In this document: positions 807 through 13,645 of the stretch, one piece after another
How the letters are laid out: every line of letters starts with the position of its first letter
Numbering within the stretch: position 1 is the first letter of the stretch
Made by a program: the position numbers and the translations under genes
Notes under the pieces: model-generated
What the model was told of the DNA's origin: nothing
The model's database searches: none
What the model saw: the letters and a program-made list of their open reading frames with translations, nothing else
Assembly (NCBI GenBank): GCA_018061385.1
Contig: JAGOUF010000009.1
Span: forward strand, 1-16,968
Length of the DNA: 16,968 nucleotides
Source of the DNA: Chitinophagaceae bacterium
Lineage (GTDB): Bacteria; Bacteroidota; Bacteroidia; Chitinophagales; Chitinophagaceae
Direction: 5' to 3'

Positions 807-2018
807 TTAATTAAAAATTGACATTGCATTATCTAAATCCGAATTTACAATTTTGGTATATATCTGCGTTGTTTTTATTGTTGAGTGCCCTAAGAGTTTA
901 CTTACATATTCAATACGCATACCTTTTTGTAAAGCTCTTGTTGCAAAGCTATGACGGCTAGAATGAAAGCTGATACTTTTTGTTAACTCCGCTTTAGTAG
1001 CTATAGTTTTAAGATTCTTGTTAGCATAAGCTGTATTTGAAGAAATAGCTTTAAACAATACACTTGGGTTTGAGTAATCAATCGTATTTGAAAGGAATGG
1101 GAAAATAAAATCAGTTGTTTTGGTATCTGGATTTAAGCTTTTGTAATACTCTAAAATTTCAATTGCCTTAGATGGTAATTTTACTGAAATAGATTCTTTG
1201 GTTTTTTGTGTAAATATTCTAACGTGTGTACCATCATAGTTACACCAACGCAACTGTAATAAATCAGAAATTCTAATGCCACCTGCATAAGCTGCAAATA
1301 CATACATGTTTTTATGATGGAACATTACAGTGTTTTCTTTTAATTCTAATTTTTCGATTGCCAATAATTCTTCATCGTTTAAATAGGCCCTGCTGGTTTT
1401 TTCCCATGATAACTTATATTTTGTGAAAGGATTTAAATGAGCTTCAATTAAATCTTCCCTAATTGCATCATTAAAAAATTTGCGAAATATTTTAAGGTTA
1501 GAGTGAATGGTATTGGGTTTATTACTTAATACATCTCTCATATACTTTTCGTATTTTTTGACAAAATCAAGATCAAATTCATCAAAATAAATATCAGCAT
1601 TATTGAGGTAGGTTTTTAATTTGAGTAAAACAGCATTTACTTTATCATGTGTACCCATTTTACCTTTTTGTAAAGTTGTTGCTTGAAAATCTTCAATGTA
1701 CTTTATAAGACTTACTGAAGCCTTACCCATAATTTCTTCTTTAATCTTTTTACTTGAAACATACTTTTTTGAGGTTTCTAAACCAACTGCTGTGCATTCT
1801 GCTTCTGAAACTTTTTTTGCAATGAATGCATTAACCTTGGTTGCATTTGGGTACTTCTTTTTTACTCTTTGATTTTGTTCGTCCCATAAATCGGGATGTA
1901 CTTTAATACCAATAGAAATAAACTTGGCTTTGCGATTTTTAGTAATTCTAAGATAAAGAGGCATTTCACCTTTTTCGTCTACTTTGTTTGCTTTTAATAT
2001 TACTTTTACTGTTGCCAT
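807..2018 (-). CDS. Tyrosine recombinase / site-specific integrase
   Basis: This 403-residue integrase would catalyse strand exchange between attachment sites of a mobile element through a 3'-phosphotyrosyl intermediate. The layout is that of Bacteroidota integrases: an N-terminal arm-type DNA-binding domain (about residues 1-90), a helical SAM-like core-binding domain (about 100-195), and the C-terminal catalytic domain (about 212-400). The catalytic set is complete: Arg249 (AGGIRIS), a Lys near 272-274 (QKTK), His352 and Arg355 (HSSRHSFATR), His378 (LLGHSTIKTT) and the nucleophile Tyr387 (QIYTKI). It therefore looks intact and active. It is transcribed toward the left edge with the 251-residue gene behind it. 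About 190 bases upstream of its start is a GC-rich tRNA-like segment (2213-2226), the likely attachment site. Tandem 12-base repeats lie in its promoter region. Confidence 0.95.
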   Translation of the reverse strand: MATVKVILKANKVDEKGEMPLYLRITKNRKAKFISIGIKVHPDLWDEQNQRVKKKYPNATKVNAFIAKKVSEAECTAVGLETSKKYVSSKKIKEEIMGKASVSLIKYIEDFQATTLQKGKMGTHDKVNAVLLKLKTYLNNADIYFDEFDLDFVKKYEKYMRDVLSNKPNTIHSNLKIFRKFFNDAIREDLIEAHLNPFTKYKLSWEKTSRAYLNDEELLAIEKLELKENTVMFHHKNMYVFAAYAGGIRISDLLQLRWCNYDGTHVRIFTQKTKESISVKLPSKAIEILEYYKSLNPDTKTTDFIFPFLSNTIDYSNPSVLFKAISSNTAYANKNLKTIATKAELTKSISFHSSRHSFATRALQKGMRIEYVSKLLGHSTIKTTQIYTKIVNSDLDNAMSIFN

Positions 2019-9226: not shown

Positions 9227-9277
9227 ATGAATAATTTACAACACATCCATCATCATCATACCATACCCAATGGGTAG
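9227..9277 (+). CDS. Histidine operon leader peptide
   Basis: A 16-codon open frame, too short for routine gene calling, reads MNNLQHIHHHHTIPNG and stops at TAG. Five of its 16 codons are histidine (CAC once, CAT four times), in the cluster H-I-H-H-H-H at 9242-9259. It lies upstream of hisG on the same strand, 36 bases before an intrinsic terminator. This is the classical arrangement for ribosome-mediated attenuation: a shortage of charged tRNA-His stalls the ribosome in the leader and prevents termination. There is no Shine-Dalgarno sequence before the ATG, as is common in Bacteroidota. The leader is separated from hisG by a whole extra gene (9405-9794), so that gene should be under the same control. 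Confidence 0.88.
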   Translation: MNNLQHIHHHHTIPNG

Positions 9278-9302
9278 GCTATTTTGTATGTGTTGTTCAA
9301 CA
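9239..9302 (+). promoter_or_regulatory. Leader RNA with competing helices of the his attenuator
   Basis: CAACACAT (9239-9246, overlapping the first His codon) is perfectly complementary to ATGTGTTG (9288-9295). This can enclose a small hairpin, TACCC (9264-9268) with GGGTA (9272-9276), at the leader stop codon. The downstream arm also lies in a second, mutually exclusive hairpin, TGTT (9291-9294) with AACA (9299-9302). A ribosome stalled on the His codons would cover the first arm and shift the balance. The link from these helices to disruption of the terminator at 9314 is not clear by eye; I did not find a long antiterminator pairing. Confidence 0.55.
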
Positions 9303-9313
9303 TAAAACATTAG

Positions 9314-9345
9314 AAGGCTTACTCTACGAGTGAGCCTTTTTTATT
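9314..9345 (+). terminator. Intrinsic terminator of the his attenuator
   Basis: AAGGCTTACTC (9314-9324) pairs with GAGTGAGCCTT (9328-9338) over 11 bp with one T-G wobble and a 3-base loop, followed by TTTTATT. It lies between the His-rich leader peptide and the structural genes. It therefore acts before any his gene is transcribed, which is where an attenuator should be. Confidence 0.88.
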
Positions 9346-9349
9346 ACCA

Positions 9350-9380
9350 TGATTTAACTGATTCAATGATTTATAAGATT
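9350..9380 (+). repeat. Left array of 8-9-base-period repeats before GxxExxY gene
   Basis: The core GATT occurs four times at 9351, 9360, 9368 and 9377 (spacing 9, 8, 9); three of the copies are TGATT (from 9350, 9359 and 9367) and the last is AGATT. The reverse complement, AATCA, makes up the array on the other side of the gene, so the two arrays are inverted relative to each other. Confidence 0.65.
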
Positions 9381-9404
9381 CCTAAAATATAGAGATTAGA
9401 AGAT

Positions 9405-9794
9405 ATGGAAGAACAAAAATATTTATATCAAGATTTGACACAAACCATTATTGGTTGTGCAATGAAAGTGCATTCTGCATTGGGCAATGGTTTTCAAGAA
9501 GTAATTTATCAAAGAGCATTAGCAATTGAATTGACTGAAAATGGAATTAATTTTCAAAGAGAAGTTTCTATTAAAGTGTTTTATAAAGAGCAGCAAATTG
9601 GAGAGAGAAGAGTTGATTTTTTAATTGAAAATAAAATTTGTGTTGAATTGAAAGCTATGGTACAGTTGGAAGATGTGCATTTGGCACAAGCTAAAAATTA
9701 TTTGGAAGCATTCAAACTAGAAGTAGGGTTATTAATCAATTTTGGAAATACAAGCCTACAATTTAAACGTGTACAAAACAATAAGTTAAAATAA
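9405..9794 (+). CDS. GxxExxY family PDDEXK-fold protein
   Basis: This 129-residue protein belongs to the GxxExxY family (PD-(D/E)XK nuclease-like fold), whose biological role is not established. The name-giving motif is Gly29-Phe-Gln-Glu32-Val-Ile-Tyr35 in LGNGFQEVIYQRAL. The predicted nuclease core is Asp71 (RVDFLIENK) with Glu81 and Lys83 (VELKA), plus Gln95 and Tyr99 (QAKNYL), so the active site looks intact. The length is usual for the family and there is no signal peptide. It lies between the his attenuator terminator and hisG, co-directional with the operon, with 18 bases between its stop and the hisG ATG. It is bracketed by inverted arrays of a 5-base core. It has no known place in histidine synthesis and looks like an inserted passenger. 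Confidence 0.92.
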   Translation: MEEQKYLYQDLTQTIIGCAMKVHSALGNGFQEVIYQRALAIELTENGINFQREVSIKVFYKEQQIGERRVDFLIENKICVELKAMVQLEDVHLAQAKNYLEAFKLEVGLLINFGNTSLQFKRVQNNKLK

Positions 9795-9821
9795 TCATTT
9801 AATCATATAATCATGAAATCA
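9792..9821 (+). repeat. Right array of 8-base-period repeats spanning hisG start
   Basis: TAATCATT, TAATCATA and TAATCATG follow each other without gaps (9792-9815), and a fourth AATCA follows at 9817-9821. The core AATCA therefore recurs at 9793, 9801, 9809 and 9817, exactly 8 bases apart. The first copy contains the GxxExxY stop codon and the third ends with the hisG ATG. The core is the inverse of the TGATT core in the left array. Confidence 0.7.
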
Positions 9822-10670
9822 AGGTTAAGATTGGCCATTCAAAAAAGTGGTAGACTTTCAGAAGATTCTATTAAACTATTAAAAGATTGTGGTATTGATT
9901 TACGCAATGTAAAAGATAGATTAAAAACAGAATCGGATAATTTTCCGTTAGAAATTTTCTTTTTACGAGACGATGATATTCCAGAATATGTAAGTGATGG
10001 AGTTGCAGATATTGGAATTGTTGGTGAAAATGTGGTGTACGAAAAAAACAAACAAGTTGAAGTAGTAGAAAAATTGGGTTTTGGAAAATGTAGATTGTGT
10101 TTTGCAGTTGATAAAAGCATCGACTACTCAAAAAATTATTTGCAAGACAAAAGAATTGCAACAAGTTACCCAGTTTTAGTGCAAAAATATTTAGTAGAAA
10201 ATAGTATAAAAGCTACCATACATGAAATTAGTGGAAGTGTAGAAATTGCACCAGGCATAGGTTTGGCAGATGCTGTTTGCGATTTGGTAAGTAGTGGCTC
10301 AACCTTATTTATGAATGGTTTAAAAGAAGTTGAAACCATTTTAAAAAGTGAAGCTGTATTAATAAGAAACAATAATTTGAATGAAGAACAAGAAAAGTTA
10401 TTGGCAAAAATATTGTTCAGAATTCAGGCTGTAAAAAAAGCAAAAAATAATAAATATATTTTGCTGAATGCACCCAACAATAAGTTGAATGAAATTGTTG
10501 CTTTATTACCTGGCATGAAAAGCCCAACAGTTTTGCCTTTGGCAACAGACGGGTGGAGCAGCGTTCACAGTGTATTAAATGAAAACGATTTCTGGAATAT
10601 TATTGAGCAACTAAAAGAACATGGAGCACAAGGAATTTTGGTTGTTCCAATAGAGAAAATGATCATTTAG
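9813..10670 (+). CDS. hisG: ATP phosphoribosyltransferase, long form
   Basis: This is the first and committed step of histidine synthesis: it condenses ATP with PRPP to phosphoribosyl-ATP and is normally feedback-inhibited by histidine. At 285 residues it is the long form (HisG_L), with two periplasmic-binding-like catalytic lobes (about 1-210) and a C-terminal ACT-like regulatory domain (about 212-285), so it needs no HisZ partner. Landmarks are LRLAIQKSGRLSEDS at the N-terminus, LRDDDIPEYV, ADIGIVGENVV and the PRPP-binding SSGSTLFMNGL. The ATG sits within the period-8 repeat array. The start fits the family, since long HisG proteins begin a few residues before the AIQKSGRL segment. It is the first his gene of the operon, although a GxxExxY gene precedes it. 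Confidence 0.97.
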   Translation: MKSRLRLAIQKSGRLSEDSIKLLKDCGIDLRNVKDRLKTESDNFPLEIFFLRDDDIPEYVSDGVADIGIVGENVVYEKNKQVEVVEKLGFGKCRLCFAVDKSIDYSKNYLQDKRIATSYPVLVQKYLVENSIKATIHEISGSVEIAPGIGLADAVCDLVSSGSTLFMNGLKEVETILKSEAVLIRNNNLNEEQEKLLAKILFRIQAVKKAKNNKYILLNAPNNKLNEIVALLPGMKSPTVLPLATDGWSSVHSVLNENDFWNIIEQLKEHGAQGILVVPIEKMII

Positions 10671-10706
10671 AATACTAATATAGGATTTGATGAAAACATA
10701 TTTTTA

Positions 10707-10732
10707 CTGTCAGCCTGAGCTTGTCGAAGGCG
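10707..10732 (+). repeat. REP-like intergenic palindromic element between hisG and hisD
   Basis: The core CCTGAGCTTGTCGAAGG lies at 10714-10730, within a longer stretch from 10707. It matches a short GC-rich extragenic repeat (CCTGAGCYTGTCGAAGG) common in many bacterial genomes. It is partly palindromic (GCCT...AGGC, with CTT-GTCG-AAG inside). It is the only GC-rich stretch in the 81-base gap between hisG and hisD. Recognition of the repeat family is from memory. Confidence 0.6.
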
Positions 10733-10751
10733 ATTATAAGAAACATTTAAA

Positions 10752-12029
10752 ATGAAAATTTTTTTATACCCAAATAAAAATACTTGGAAGGAATTACTTG
10801 TAAGACCAACATTTGACAATGTTAACTTACAAGAACAAGTATCCAAAGTTTTAAAAGAAGTTCAACAAAATGGAGATGCAGCTATAAAAAAATATACTGC
10901 ACAGTTCGATGGCGTTGAATTGAATGATTTTGTAGTAACTGAAAATGAAATTACGCTTGCTATCGCAAGCCTTTCCAATGAATTGAAACAAGCTATTGAA
11001 ACTGCAGCCAACAATATCAATACTTTTCATCAAAAGCAAGTTGCCAAAATTGAGGTTGTTGAAACAATGTCAGGTGTAAATTGTTGGCGTAAAAGTATAG
11101 GTATAGAAAAAGTGGGATTATATATTCCTGGAGGAACTGCACCCTTATTTTCTACAATTTTAATGTTGGGAATTCCTGCAAAAATTGCTGGTTGTAAAGA
11201 GGTAGTTTTATGTTCTCCTCCAAACAAAGAAGGCAAATTGCATCCAGCAATTTTGTTTGCAGCCAACCTTGTTGGAATAAACAAAATATACAAAGTTGGA
11301 GGTGTACAAGCTATAGCTGCAATGGCTTATGGAACTGAAACAATTAATGAATGTTATAAAATATTTGGTCCGGGTAATCAATATGTAACTTGTGCCAAAC
11401 AATTGATTCAACAAGAAGGAATTGCTATTGATATGCCTGCAGGCCCTAGTGAAGTGTGTGTAATGGCTGACGCAACTGCTAATGCAAGTTTTGTTGCTTC
11501 GGATTTATTGAGTCAGGCTGAACATGGTATAGATAGTCAAGTTTTATTGGTAAGCACAAGTGAACAATTGGTAAATGAAGTAAATAAGGAGTTAGCAATA
11601 CAAGTACAATTCCTGTCAAGAAAAGAAATTGCCCTTCAATCTTTAGAAAATAGTAAAGCGATACTTGTTAATACTATGGATGAAGCCATTGATTTGGTAA
11701 ATGAATATGCTGCTGAACATCTTATTATTTCTTGCGAAAATGATGAGGCCATTGCAGAAAAAATCATCAATGCTGGTTCTATTTTCTTGGGAAATTATTC
11801 ACCTGAAAGTGTGGGTGATTATGCTAGTGGTACCAATCATACTTTACCTACCAATGGTTTTGCAAAAGCTTATAGTGGTGTAAGCGTAGATAGTTTTGTA
11901 AAGAAAATTACCTATCAAAAATTAACTAAAGAGGGCTTAACTAATATTGCAAATACTGTAGAGTTAATGGCAGCAGCAGAGGGGTTAGATGGGCATAAGA
12001 ATGCAGTAAGTGTAAGAAGAGAATCTTAA
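10752..12029 (+). CDS. hisD: Histidinol dehydrogenase
   Basis: This enzyme carries out the last two steps of histidine synthesis, oxidising L-histidinol to histidinal and then to L-histidine with NAD; it is a cytoplasmic zinc homodimer. The 425-residue length is typical. The family landmarks are all visible: GLYIPGGTAPL (122-132), FGPGNQYV (205-212), AGPSEVCV (230-237), the zinc-site QAEHG (255-259), AEHLII (321-326, containing the Glu-His pair) and GDYASGTNHTLPT. It lies 81 bases after hisG, and the gap holds a REP-like element. The stop is followed within 10 bases by the left inverted repeat of the DUF559 unit. No broken or missing motif is seen. Confidence 0.97.
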   Translation: MKIFLYPNKNTWKELLVRPTFDNVNLQEQVSKVLKEVQQNGDAAIKKYTAQFDGVELNDFVVTENEITLAIASLSNELKQAIETAANNINTFHQKQVAKIEVVETMSGVNCWRKSIGIEKVGLYIPGGTAPLFSTILMLGIPAKIAGCKEVVLCSPPNKEGKLHPAILFAANLVGINKIYKVGGVQAIAAMAYGTETINECYKIFGPGNQYVTCAKQLIQQEGIAIDMPAGPSEVCVMADATANASFVASDLLSQAEHGIDSQVLLVSTSEQLVNEVNKELAIQVQFLSRKEIALQSLENSKAILVNTMDEAIDLVNEYAAEHLIISCENDEAIAEKIINAGSIFLGNYSPESVGDYASGTNHTLPTNGFAKAYSGVSVDSFVKKITYQKLTKEGLTNIANTVELMAAAEGLDGHKNAVSVRRES

Positions 12030-12037
12030 TTAATGAA

Positions 12038-12079
12038 TCTTCCCCTCCTTGGAGGGGTGCCCTTTAAGGCGGGGTGGGT
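12038..12079 (+). repeat. Left inverted repeat of DUF559 unit, with internal hairpin
   Basis: It begins TCTTCCCCTCCTTGGAGGGG and ends GGCGGGGTGGGT. The first part contains a perfect 7-bp palindrome, CCCCTCC-TT-GGAGGGG (12042-12057). It is strongly GC-rich against an AT-rich background. Its reverse complement reappears at 12521-12559. Confidence 0.85.
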
Positions 12080-12110
12080 AAAATATTTATAATATTTTTA
12101 TGTGTTTAAA

Positions 12111-12590
12111 ATGAAACGAAAAATTATTCCATATAATCCATCTTTAAAAAATTTAGCCAAGCAATTGCGAAAGCAAATGACTTTTTCTGAAGTAAAATTG
12201 TGGATGTTATTGAACAATTTTCAAATGATGGGATATGACTTTGACCGACAAAGACCCATTCTAAATTATATTGTAGACTTTTATTGTAAAGATCTGCAAT
12301 TAGTTATTGAAGTAGATGGTATAACGCATATGGACACAAATGCTGTTGAAAAAGATGAAATACGTGATGATGAACTAAATGAGTATGGTATTACAGTATT
12401 AAGATTTAATGCTTTAGATGTACTGCATAATTCATGTGCATGTTTAGAAAATATAGAGGCATGGATTATTGGTTATGAAAAAGTAAATGGGGTTGAGGCT
12501 CATCTTTTGAAAAGAAGAAAACCCACCCCGCCTTTGGCATCCCTCCAAGGAGGGGAAGATGAAAAAAAAAATGAACATAATAAACTATGA
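12111..12590 (+). CDS. DUF559 family endonuclease-like protein
   Basis: This 159-residue protein has the DUF559 domain, a PD-(D/E)XK/Vsr-like endonuclease fold of unknown natural substrate. Landmarks are SEVKLW (26-31, Glu27), GYDFDRQRPI (41-50), the catalytic-type Asp56 (YIVDFYCK), VIEVDG (65-70, with Glu67 and Asp69) and His73, then LRFN (97-100). I chose the ATG at 12111; a GTG at 12102 in the same frame would add three residues, but family members begin MKRKIIPYNP. Residues 137-150 (PTPPLASLQGGED) are simply the translation of the right inverted repeat, so the C-terminus was contributed by the repeat. The TGA overlaps the hisC ATG (ATGA), which couples the two genes. It has no role in histidine synthesis. 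Confidence 0.9.
   Translation: MKRKIIPYNPSLKNLAKQLRKQMTFSEVKLWMLLNNFQMMGYDFDRQRPILNYIVDFYCKDLQLVIEVDGITHMDTNAVEKDEIRDDELNEYGITVLRFNALDVLHNSCACLENIEAWIIGYEKVNGVEAHLLKRRKPTPPLASLQGGEDEKKNEHNKL
12521..12559 (-). repeat. Right inverted repeat of DUF559 unit, inside its coding region
   Basis: On the plus strand it reads ACCCACCCCGCC at its start and CCAAGGAGGGGAAGA at its end, the inverse of 12038-12079 apart from one substitution and a 3-base gap. The internal palindrome has one mismatch here (CCCTCC-AA-GGAGGGG). It supplies the last part of the DUF559 reading frame and places an AAGGAGG sequence (12547-12553) about 33 bases before the hisC start. Confidence 0.85.
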
Positions 12591-13645
12591 GTTTCGACAT
12601 AAACAAATTAGCCAGAGAAAATATCAAAAAACTCACTCCATACTCATCGGCTCGTGATGAGTTTAGTGGCGAAGCAAAAGTATTTTTAGATGCCAATGAA
12701 AACAGCTTAGGAAGTCCTTTGAAAAAATGGTACAATCGTTATCCAGATCCTCATCAACAAAAATTAAAAGAAGCGATTTCTTTTGTAAAAACGGTTCCTA
12801 CAGAAAATATTTTTTTAGGCAATGGCAGCGATGAATGTATAGATTTATTGTATCGTTGTTTTTGTGAGCCAAAGAAAGACAATGTGATTATTTGTCCTCC
12901 AACTTATGGCATGTACGAAGTAAGTGCCAATATCAATGATGTTGAAATTAGAAAAGCATCTTTGCTAGATGATTTTCAATTAGACTTAGTTCACTTAGAA
13001 AATTTGGTAGATGAAAATACCAAGCTCATTTGGATTTGTTCGCCCAATAATCCTACAGGAAATTCTTTAAATAGAGTAGATATTGAATCCGTCTTAAACA
13101 ACTTCAATGGCATTGTTGTAATTGATGAAGCTTATATCAATTTTGCCAAGCAAAAGTCTTTTATTCAAGAATTGAATGACTATCCCAATTTAGTAGTGAT
13201 GCAAACCTTTAGTAAAGCATGGGGTTTGGCAGGTTTGCGTTTAGGAATGTCATTTGCGTCAGTGGAAATTATTGAGGTAATGAATAAGGTTAAGCCACCT
13301 TACAATATCAATCAAGCAACGCAAGAGTTGGCATTGAAAGCATTGGAGGAAGTTGGTCAAGTAAATGATATGATTAAAGTGTTGGTAGATATGCGTAATG
13401 CTTTAGCAGAAGTTTTTATACAAATTCCTATTGTTGAAAAAGTGTATCCTAGTGATGCTAATTTTCTATTGGTAAAAGTACAAGAAGCAAGAAAATTGTA
13501 TGACTATTTATTAAGTAAAGGCATTGTTGTAAGAGATAGAAGCAATGTACAGTTGTGTGATGAGTGTTTAAGAATAACCATTGGAACAGAAACAGAAAAT
13601 ACATTGTTAATAGATGCAATTGCTGACTATTTAAATCAATTATAA
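12587..13645 (+). CDS. hisC: Histidinol-phosphate aminotransferase
   Basis: This PLP enzyme transaminates imidazole-acetol phosphate with glutamate to give L-histidinol phosphate. At 352 residues it is a typical class I/II fold-type I aminotransferase. The motifs are complete: the ANEN segment (36-39), NGSDECID (79-86), SPNNPTGN (152-159), Asp180 with Tyr183 (VIDEAYINF), the PLP lysine Lys210 (TFSKAWGLAGLRLGM) with Arg218, and a C-terminal Arg that would bind the substrate carboxylate. Its ATG overlaps the stop of the DUF559 gene (ATGA), and the hisB ATG follows its TAA with no gap, so translation of the three is likely coupled. No independent promoter is seen. Confidence 0.97.
   Translation: MSFDINKLARENIKKLTPYSSARDEFSGEAKVFLDANENSLGSPLKKWYNRYPDPHQQKLKEAISFVKTVPTENIFLGNGSDECIDLLYRCFCEPKKDNVIICPPTYGMYEVSANINDVEIRKASLLDDFQLDLVHLENLVDENTKLIWICSPNNPTGNSLNRVDIESVLNNFNGIVVIDEAYINFAKQKSFIQELNDYPNLVVMQTFSKAWGLAGLRLGMSFASVEIIEVMNKVKPPYNINQATQELALKALEEVGQVNDMIKVLVDMRNALAEVFIQIPIVEKVYPSDANFLLVKVQEARKLYDYLLSKGIVVRDRSNVQLCDECLRITIGTETENTLLIDAIADYLNQL

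Follow-up and report, generated by a model that had tools for sequence, protein, structure and literature searches.

The histidine operon of a Chitinophagaceae bacterium raises the question of what two small nuclease genes are doing beside its biosynthetic genes. The stretch analysed here (the window) comprises 16,968 nucleotides of GenBank contig JAGOUF010000009.1. One of the two genes, a member of the DUF559 family, lies between hisD and hisC, and the other, of the GxxExxY family, lies upstream of hisG. A sequence-only reading of the window had placed both cassettes in the operon, co-directional with it and without disturbance of the his frames. Gene calls and family matches confirmed this arrangement: the hisG-hisD-hisC-hisB operon is intact and both nuclease genes point in its direction. 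We propose, with a probability of about 0.6, that the DUF559 cassette represents a homing-type selfish, unspliced nuclease element that is widespread in Bacteroidota and has solo-arm derivatives.

The DUF559 gene and its paired arms

The DUF559 gene of the window is free-standing. Its 158-amino acid (aa) product matches PF04480 with 104 bits, and its fold matches those of the EDxHD homing endonuclease I-Bth0305I and of Vsr. The PD-(D/E)XK-type fold assigned to it earlier was corrected to the EDxHD/Vsr branch rather than the classical PD-(D/E)XK one. The inverted repeats of about 40 bp said to bracket the gene were verified. The two arms are 88% identical as reverse complements. Their alignment score is 61, whereas arms taken from different loci have a 99th percentile of 43 and a maximum of 64, which places the pair well above chance. 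Each arm is a unit resembling a repetitive extragenic palindrome (REP), with a palindrome of the type CCCCTCC-n-GGAGGGG and a GGGGTGGG tail. The right arm is translated and forms the tail of the protein. Copies of the window arm were found with 95% identity in genomes G111 and G047, there away from the listed DUF559 matches, with 92% identity at three places in G028, and with 88% identity within a 543-aa HsdM-like frame, named by eye, of G133.

Residence inside host reading frames

Matches to PF04480 were found in 72 of 148 genomes (138 rows), and 94 of the best 97 rows were analysed; the set excludes three near full-length rows (G110:C412, G140:C35 and G071:C30) and 41 rows with weaker or shorter matches. 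Longer host frames contain 48 of the 94 loci, in 37 genomes, and the other 46 are free. Since about half of the DUF559 copies are inside or fused to other frames, insertion at operon junctions, once put forward as a shared design, characterizes them only in part. Leucyl-tRNA synthetase (LeuS) is the host of 20 in-frame copies in 18 genomes, 16 of them at the loop of the CP1 editing domain and 4 at a second loop. The other hosts are MetH (5), HsdR (4), ArgB (3, N-terminal), IcmF-type proteins (3), adenine deaminase (2), type IIG proteins (2) and, once each, AroC, MetG, HemE (C-terminal), RecQ (N-terminal), an Lhr-type helicase, an M23 peptidase and a type ISP protein. Hosts were named by hmmscan for part of the copies, and like copies were grouped by blastp; the labels 'CinA' (L125) and 'IcmF2' (L147) of the remaining two copies came from flanks or blastp similarity, and hmmscan did not confirm them.

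In the in-frame copies both arms are translated, and the element, unspliced, lacks its own promoter, start and stop. A Pfam scan (E 1e-4) of ten insert-bearing proteins detected no splicing domain, just host domains and DUF559/MTES_1575. Of the 48 in-frame copies, 47 retain the active-site motif, and purifying selection was seen at several host sites. The source genome of the window (G000; 2.84 Mb, 516 contigs, 80% complete) has four DUF559 genes, one of which (C346) is in frame within LeuS, where its arms read as TSPQPLSKGEGQ and SPSPLERGRGEV.

Named genomes were scanned with an alignment of ten in-frame DUF559 sequences as the query, and the best 80 of at least 568 confirmed stretches were retained. 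Judged by title, 77 of these 80 loci belong to Bacteroidota, and the others to metagenome-assembled genomes (MAGs) of Limnohabitans, Ignavibacterium and Nitrotoga. Host-size frames hold 67 of the 80 and short frames 13, a proportion biased upward because the query was built from in-frame copies; the 48 of 94 obtained with the family hidden Markov model is the fairer figure. Hosts among these 80 were counted by short signature peptides, with nine leftovers assigned by eye and ten checked by hmmscan. They were LeuS (24), MetH (9), IleS (7), ValS (6), RecG (6), IspF (3, N-terminal), AroC (2) and, once each, MetG, PurL, Gmk (N-terminal), ArgB (N-terminal), IspG (C-terminal), a glycosidase, and Acs-like, AddA-like, PaaZ-like and Lhr-like proteins. 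The active-site motif count in this set (79/80) was not used as evidence, being circular, since the scan pattern included the motif. Some of the DUF559 copies are terminal fusions, not interior inserts: N-terminal on IspF (L254, L258, L271), on Gmk (L266) and on ArgB (L238, L089/L137/L153), and C-terminal on IspG (L281).

The LeuS sites occur in empty, solo-arm and full states. The LeuS model scored above its cut-off in 143 of the 148 genomes; the listed frames are mostly 920-1000 aa long, and complete insert-bearing genes 1074-1315 aa. Within one genus, the CP1 loop is without the element in G002-G005, G007 and G009 and full in G001 (an insert of about 134 aa) and G006; in G110, of the same family, it holds a single in-frame arm. 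The second loop is empty in G003-G006, carries a degraded solo arm in G001, and is full in G000 and two Ferruginibacter MAGs, where it is bounded by GACCTCACC and GGTGAGGTC or close variants. A LeuS of G021 has two inserts, at two sites, and the G000 frame includes a third, solo arm besides the two of the element. The DUF559 domains of G000 (second site) and G001 (CP1 site) are 75% identical and, judged by this resemblance, are related copies at different sites. Pairs of occupied and empty sites, which the sequence-only reading had suggested as a check, were thus found at genes other than those of the his operon.

The same-genus LeuS loops counted as empty (among L189, L192, L199 and L214-L216) can carry other in-frame short tandem repeats, such as AACATTC in G005, GTTGGAAGTCGGAAGTTGG in G007 and CCACAGTCCACAGTCC in G009, so that the CP1 loop seems to be open to repeats of various kinds. 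The LeuS of G058 (L211) has a different insert of about 180 aa at the CP1 site, possibly another nuclease-like domain; G058 is without PF04480 among the matches listed.

Arm pairing was scored by comparing the upstream arm with the reverse-complemented downstream arm. The median score was 34, versus 20 for mismatched loci, and 54 of 89 loci (26/43 in-frame and 28/46 free copies) exceeded the 95th percentile, 32 of them also the 99th. Among the named loci, a score of 30 was reached by 50 of the 77 scored. Class-I termini define both ends in 37 of 174 elements, and in 33 of these 37 the outermost bases pair (A-T 24, G-C 9; others 4). Class-I palindromes number 200, in 38 of the 148 genomes, and also occur away from the nuclease. 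After the removal of 19 near analysed DUF559 matches, they were present in 25 of 62 genomes with a strong DUF559 match versus 11 of the 86 others (27/62 and 11/86 before removal), with totals of 149 and 32, respectively. Nine class-I palindromes with at most two mismatches were detected in G000 (control, 0). The arms of the LeuS element account for two of them; six of the other seven lie in open frames of at least 316 codons, one of them LeuS, and one does not. In 21 of 52 cases the frame around a palindrome stays open for 50 codons to either side, which is weak evidence of a gene; the two arms of the G000 LeuS element are among these 21. Solo arms stand in frame twice in the LeuS of G110, once in that of G000, and also in the HsdM-like frame of G133. 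The repeats of the window had been expected elsewhere in the genome, and pairs both with and without a nuclease gene are indeed present in G000. C343 of G000 (L307, L313) has an open reading frame (ORF) of about 940-1000 aa with two in-frame class-I arms and a third, variant palindrome.

The his junctions and the GxxExxY cassette

The features of the his region are listed in Table 1.

Table 1. Positions of the operon genes, the nuclease genes and their repeats in the window.
Feature	Position	Strand	Remarks
his leader peptide ORF MNNLQHIHHHHTIPNG	9227..9277	+	His-rich; read by eye
Terminator-like hairpin	~9314-9344		3' of his leader
GxxExxY cassette, left short-period array	9346..9380	.	
GxxExxY protein gene (PF13366 / TIGR04256)	9405..9794	+	
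GxxExxY cassette, right short-period array	9791..9821	.	tandem repeats; overlaps GxxExxY stop and hisG start
hisG	9813..10670	+	intact
hisD	10752..12029	+	intact
Left REP-like arm of DUF559 element	12037..12079	.	palindrome outward, G-rich tail inward
DUF559 EDxHD/Vsr-fold nuclease gene	12114..12590	+	ATG start, alternative GTG at 12102
Right REP-like arm of DUF559 element	12521..12560	.	within DUF559 frame (...RKPTPPLASLQGGEDE...)
hisC	12587..13645	+	intact; start overlaps DUF559 stop as ATGA

hisD was found in 31 of 59 relatives, and 20 his loci from those 31 genomes were examined. Neither GxxExxY nor DUF559 was detected by tblastn (1e-6) in these 20 loci; 17 of them allow a judgement on the hisD-hisC junction (L058, L061 and L062 show no hisC) and 19 on the upstream side of hisG (L048 is cut at hisG). 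Two of the loci, from G002 and G009, belong to the same genus, and there both junctions are without these genes and hold other repeats instead. The expectation that relatives would have his sites without these genes was thus borne out. No border-exact empty site was obtained for the his copies of the window, the spacers of the relatives holding other, unrelated repeats. In G021 (L049), the hisD-hisC junction contains a Y1/IS200-like transposase ORF, recognized by eye, between inverted repeats of its own. The his junctions collect repeats.

The GxxExxY gene matches TIGR04256 with 142 bits, and also PF13366. There are eight intact GxxExxY genes in G000, with broken pieces at two further places, and the family is present in 41 of the 59 relatives. 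Inverted short-period arrays were seen by eye at all eight intact copies, and their motif classes differ. In 37 loci (the eight from G000 plus a single locus per relative for 29 relatives) the median arm score was 34 versus 20, with 22 above the 95th and 9 above the 99th percentile. The inverted arrays proposed earlier for the window copy are weaker than the DUF559 arms: they score 28, just below the 95th percentile of 30 for mismatched pairs, and are believable mainly because of the 22 of 37. A same-strand control was nearly as strong (13 and 11 of 37 above the 95th and 99th percentiles), so the inversion is less certain for GxxExxY than for DUF559. One arm motif had ten matches in the genus, eight of them beside GxxExxY genes; the control pattern itself gave six matches, and solo GxxExxY arms were sought among these matches and none was found. 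GxxExxY was not seen within a long host frame: among the matches listed for the 59 relatives, open frames reach 197 aa at most. The GxxExxY cassette probably represents another nuclease element, unrelated to the first and found at intergenic sites, a conclusion held with lower confidence than that on DUF559. The idea of one design common to both cassettes was abandoned: GxxExxY is intergenic with short-period arrays, and DUF559 has REP-like arms and is often in frame. The description of both as minimal mobile elements holds insofar as they look like mobile, minimal nuclease cassettes, and was too narrow in that DUF559 is also found inside essential reading frames.

A similar His-rich leader lies upstream of hisG in L043, L044 and L045. 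The hisG-hisD spacer (window 10707-10732) has a repeat with TCAGCCTGAGCTTGTCGAAGG, a near copy of which is at the same place in G009 (L044). A tyrosine-recombinase-like integrase ORF, named by eye, occupies window 807-2018 on the minus strand, with ORFs of unknown function nearby.

Mechanism, rival explanations and known systems

The proposed element would consist of a small EDxHD/Vsr-fold nuclease between paired, inverted REP-like palindromic arms, and would have two lifestyles: free between genes, as in the window, where it points with the operon and overlaps the next gene translationally, or in frame, either within a protein or as a fusion to one. In the latter case the host gene would translate the element, and the arms would turn into flexible linkers. 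The most likely mechanism would be that the nuclease cuts an empty or solo-arm allele and that break repair then copies in the arm-nuclease-arm block, as in homing. In essential genes, only in-frame, stop-free insertions in tolerant loops would survive, and these would thereafter be hard to delete. Solo arms may be left-over or non-autonomous forms. A quick tree of the DUF559 copies, built on 114 columns and leaving 32 of 91 forks open, shows a strong separation of in-frame from free copies (9 changes vs 31.8 in shuffles). Clustering by host site is partial: the 19 labels need 23 changes, where the minimum is 18 and shuffles average 46. The LeuS copies of the two sites intermix. This pattern fits copies that stay at one site for long and occasionally spread to new sites and hosts.

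Several observations weigh against a homing-type element. The IcmF and ArgB copies each form one clade, and grouping by host site speaks against frequent random jumping and for a vertical stay or site-specific homing. Nothing in the 148 genomes comes close to the window copy, for which the best DNA match reaches 74% over 221 bp, and a long DNA-binding extension of the I-Bth0305I type is not evident in its protein. The arms of 18 of the 89 loci score 22 or less; same-strand arms have a median score of 25, with 15 of 89 above the 99th percentile, although some such similarity is expected because each arm is itself a palindrome. The 37 elements with both motif-defined termini have no target duplication of 4 bp or more; one of 3 bp (0.8 expected) and six 2-bp matches (2.4 expected) were counted, with borders set by motif and the true ones possibly a few bases off. 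The statistics for the terminal pairing (P 1.6e-5) and for the association of palindromes with DUF559 (P 1.8e-4) were calculated ignoring relatedness. Finally, genomes without a DUF559 match can have class-I arms (seven in G070, six in G129 and five in G076).

Arms in such genomes would be expected if they were ordinary REPs, which they resemble, moved by a RAYT/IS200-type (Y1) transposase, with DUF559 as a passenger caught between two of them. The Y1-like ORF at the hisD-hisC junction of G021 points the same way. This explanation is unlikely: G000, as far as its 80% completeness goes, has just one 24.6-bit Y1 fragment and yet both paired and solo arms, passengers should decay whereas the active-site motif is nearly always kept, and the family recurs between such arms across Bacteroidota, as the 50 of 77 named loci attest. 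Purifying selection at several sites, together with the stable occupancy of clades such as those of the ArgB and IcmF copies, would also agree with recruitment of the nuclease domain by hosts for their own benefit, such as Vsr-like damage repair or phage defence tied to essential enzymes. We regard recruitment as less probable still, since the host proteins are functionally unrelated, occupancy varies among species of one genus, and the inserts are accompanied by repeat arms and solo-arm states, none of which recruitment needs. The his repeats could be mere regulatory punctuation, terminators or mRNA stabilisers around resident genes with nothing mobile about them, and the his spacers of relatives, in the few loci viewed, abound in other repeats, most of which have no nuclease gene with them. 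However, neither gene was found at these junctions in the 20 relatives' loci searched, and in-frame copies stand in coding sequence, where punctuation makes no sense; this already disfavoured explanation is very improbable.

A homing-type element thus remains our preferred explanation for the DUF559 cassette. More tentatively, and at somewhat less than even odds, it could represent an undescribed category of mobile element: an unspliced 'resident nuclease' that colonises ORFs, above all those of aminoacyl-tRNA synthetases, with palindromic ends serving as both DNA termini and in-frame linkers, hard to delete or frameshift in an essential enzyme, and with solo arms as non-autonomous offspring. 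If this is true, selfish DNA can persist in essential enzymes without splicing, and domain insertions in conserved bacterial proteins would have to be read differently. It would also explain why translated peptides such as SPLERG and TPNPSPKERG recur in proteins of Bacteroidota, and would give DUF559, a nuclease family of unknown function, a testable role. With site-paired genomes, homing that involves neither intron nor intein can be tested directly.

In the open PMC literature, searched by title and start of abstract, no paper on DUF559 elements in frames or between arms was found; subscription papers and preprints lie outside that coverage. REP/REPIN-RAYT systems are alike in having inverted palindromic repeats around one gene and solo repeats elsewhere. 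RAYT/TnpAREP proteins are HUH (Y1) enzymes, and REPs are extragenic; here an EDxHD nuclease takes the place of the Y1 transposase and insertions are found in coding sequence. Solo DUF559 arms resemble Rickettsia palindromic elements (RPEs) as in-frame palindromic DNA in unrelated genes. RPEs are described as palindromic DNA of about 150 bp inserted in frame in unrelated coding genes, with a conserved peptide that is not a nuclease (PMC10969869); going by that description, DUF559 arms are set apart by also being paired around a nuclease, and by their occurrence in Bacteroidota. With EDxHD homing endonucleases such as I-Bth0305I, and with homing endonuclease genes, the element has in common the catalytic fold and residues, sites in conserved genes and a patchy distribution of occupied and empty sites. 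Enzymes of the I-Bth0305I type employ long extra DNA-binding regions (PMC3943268), and a DUF559 gene has been placed in the EDxHD family within a section on inteins, a passage without mention of arms or unspliced residence (PMC9403480). Unlike these enzymes, the DUF559 element is without an intron or intein, so that nothing is spliced out, lacks a long DNA-binding extension and has inverted REP-like arms. Inteins are alike in their in-frame insertion, with a nuclease, into essential genes; unlike them, the DUF559 inserts that were scanned have no splicing domain, and their linkers are the translated arms.

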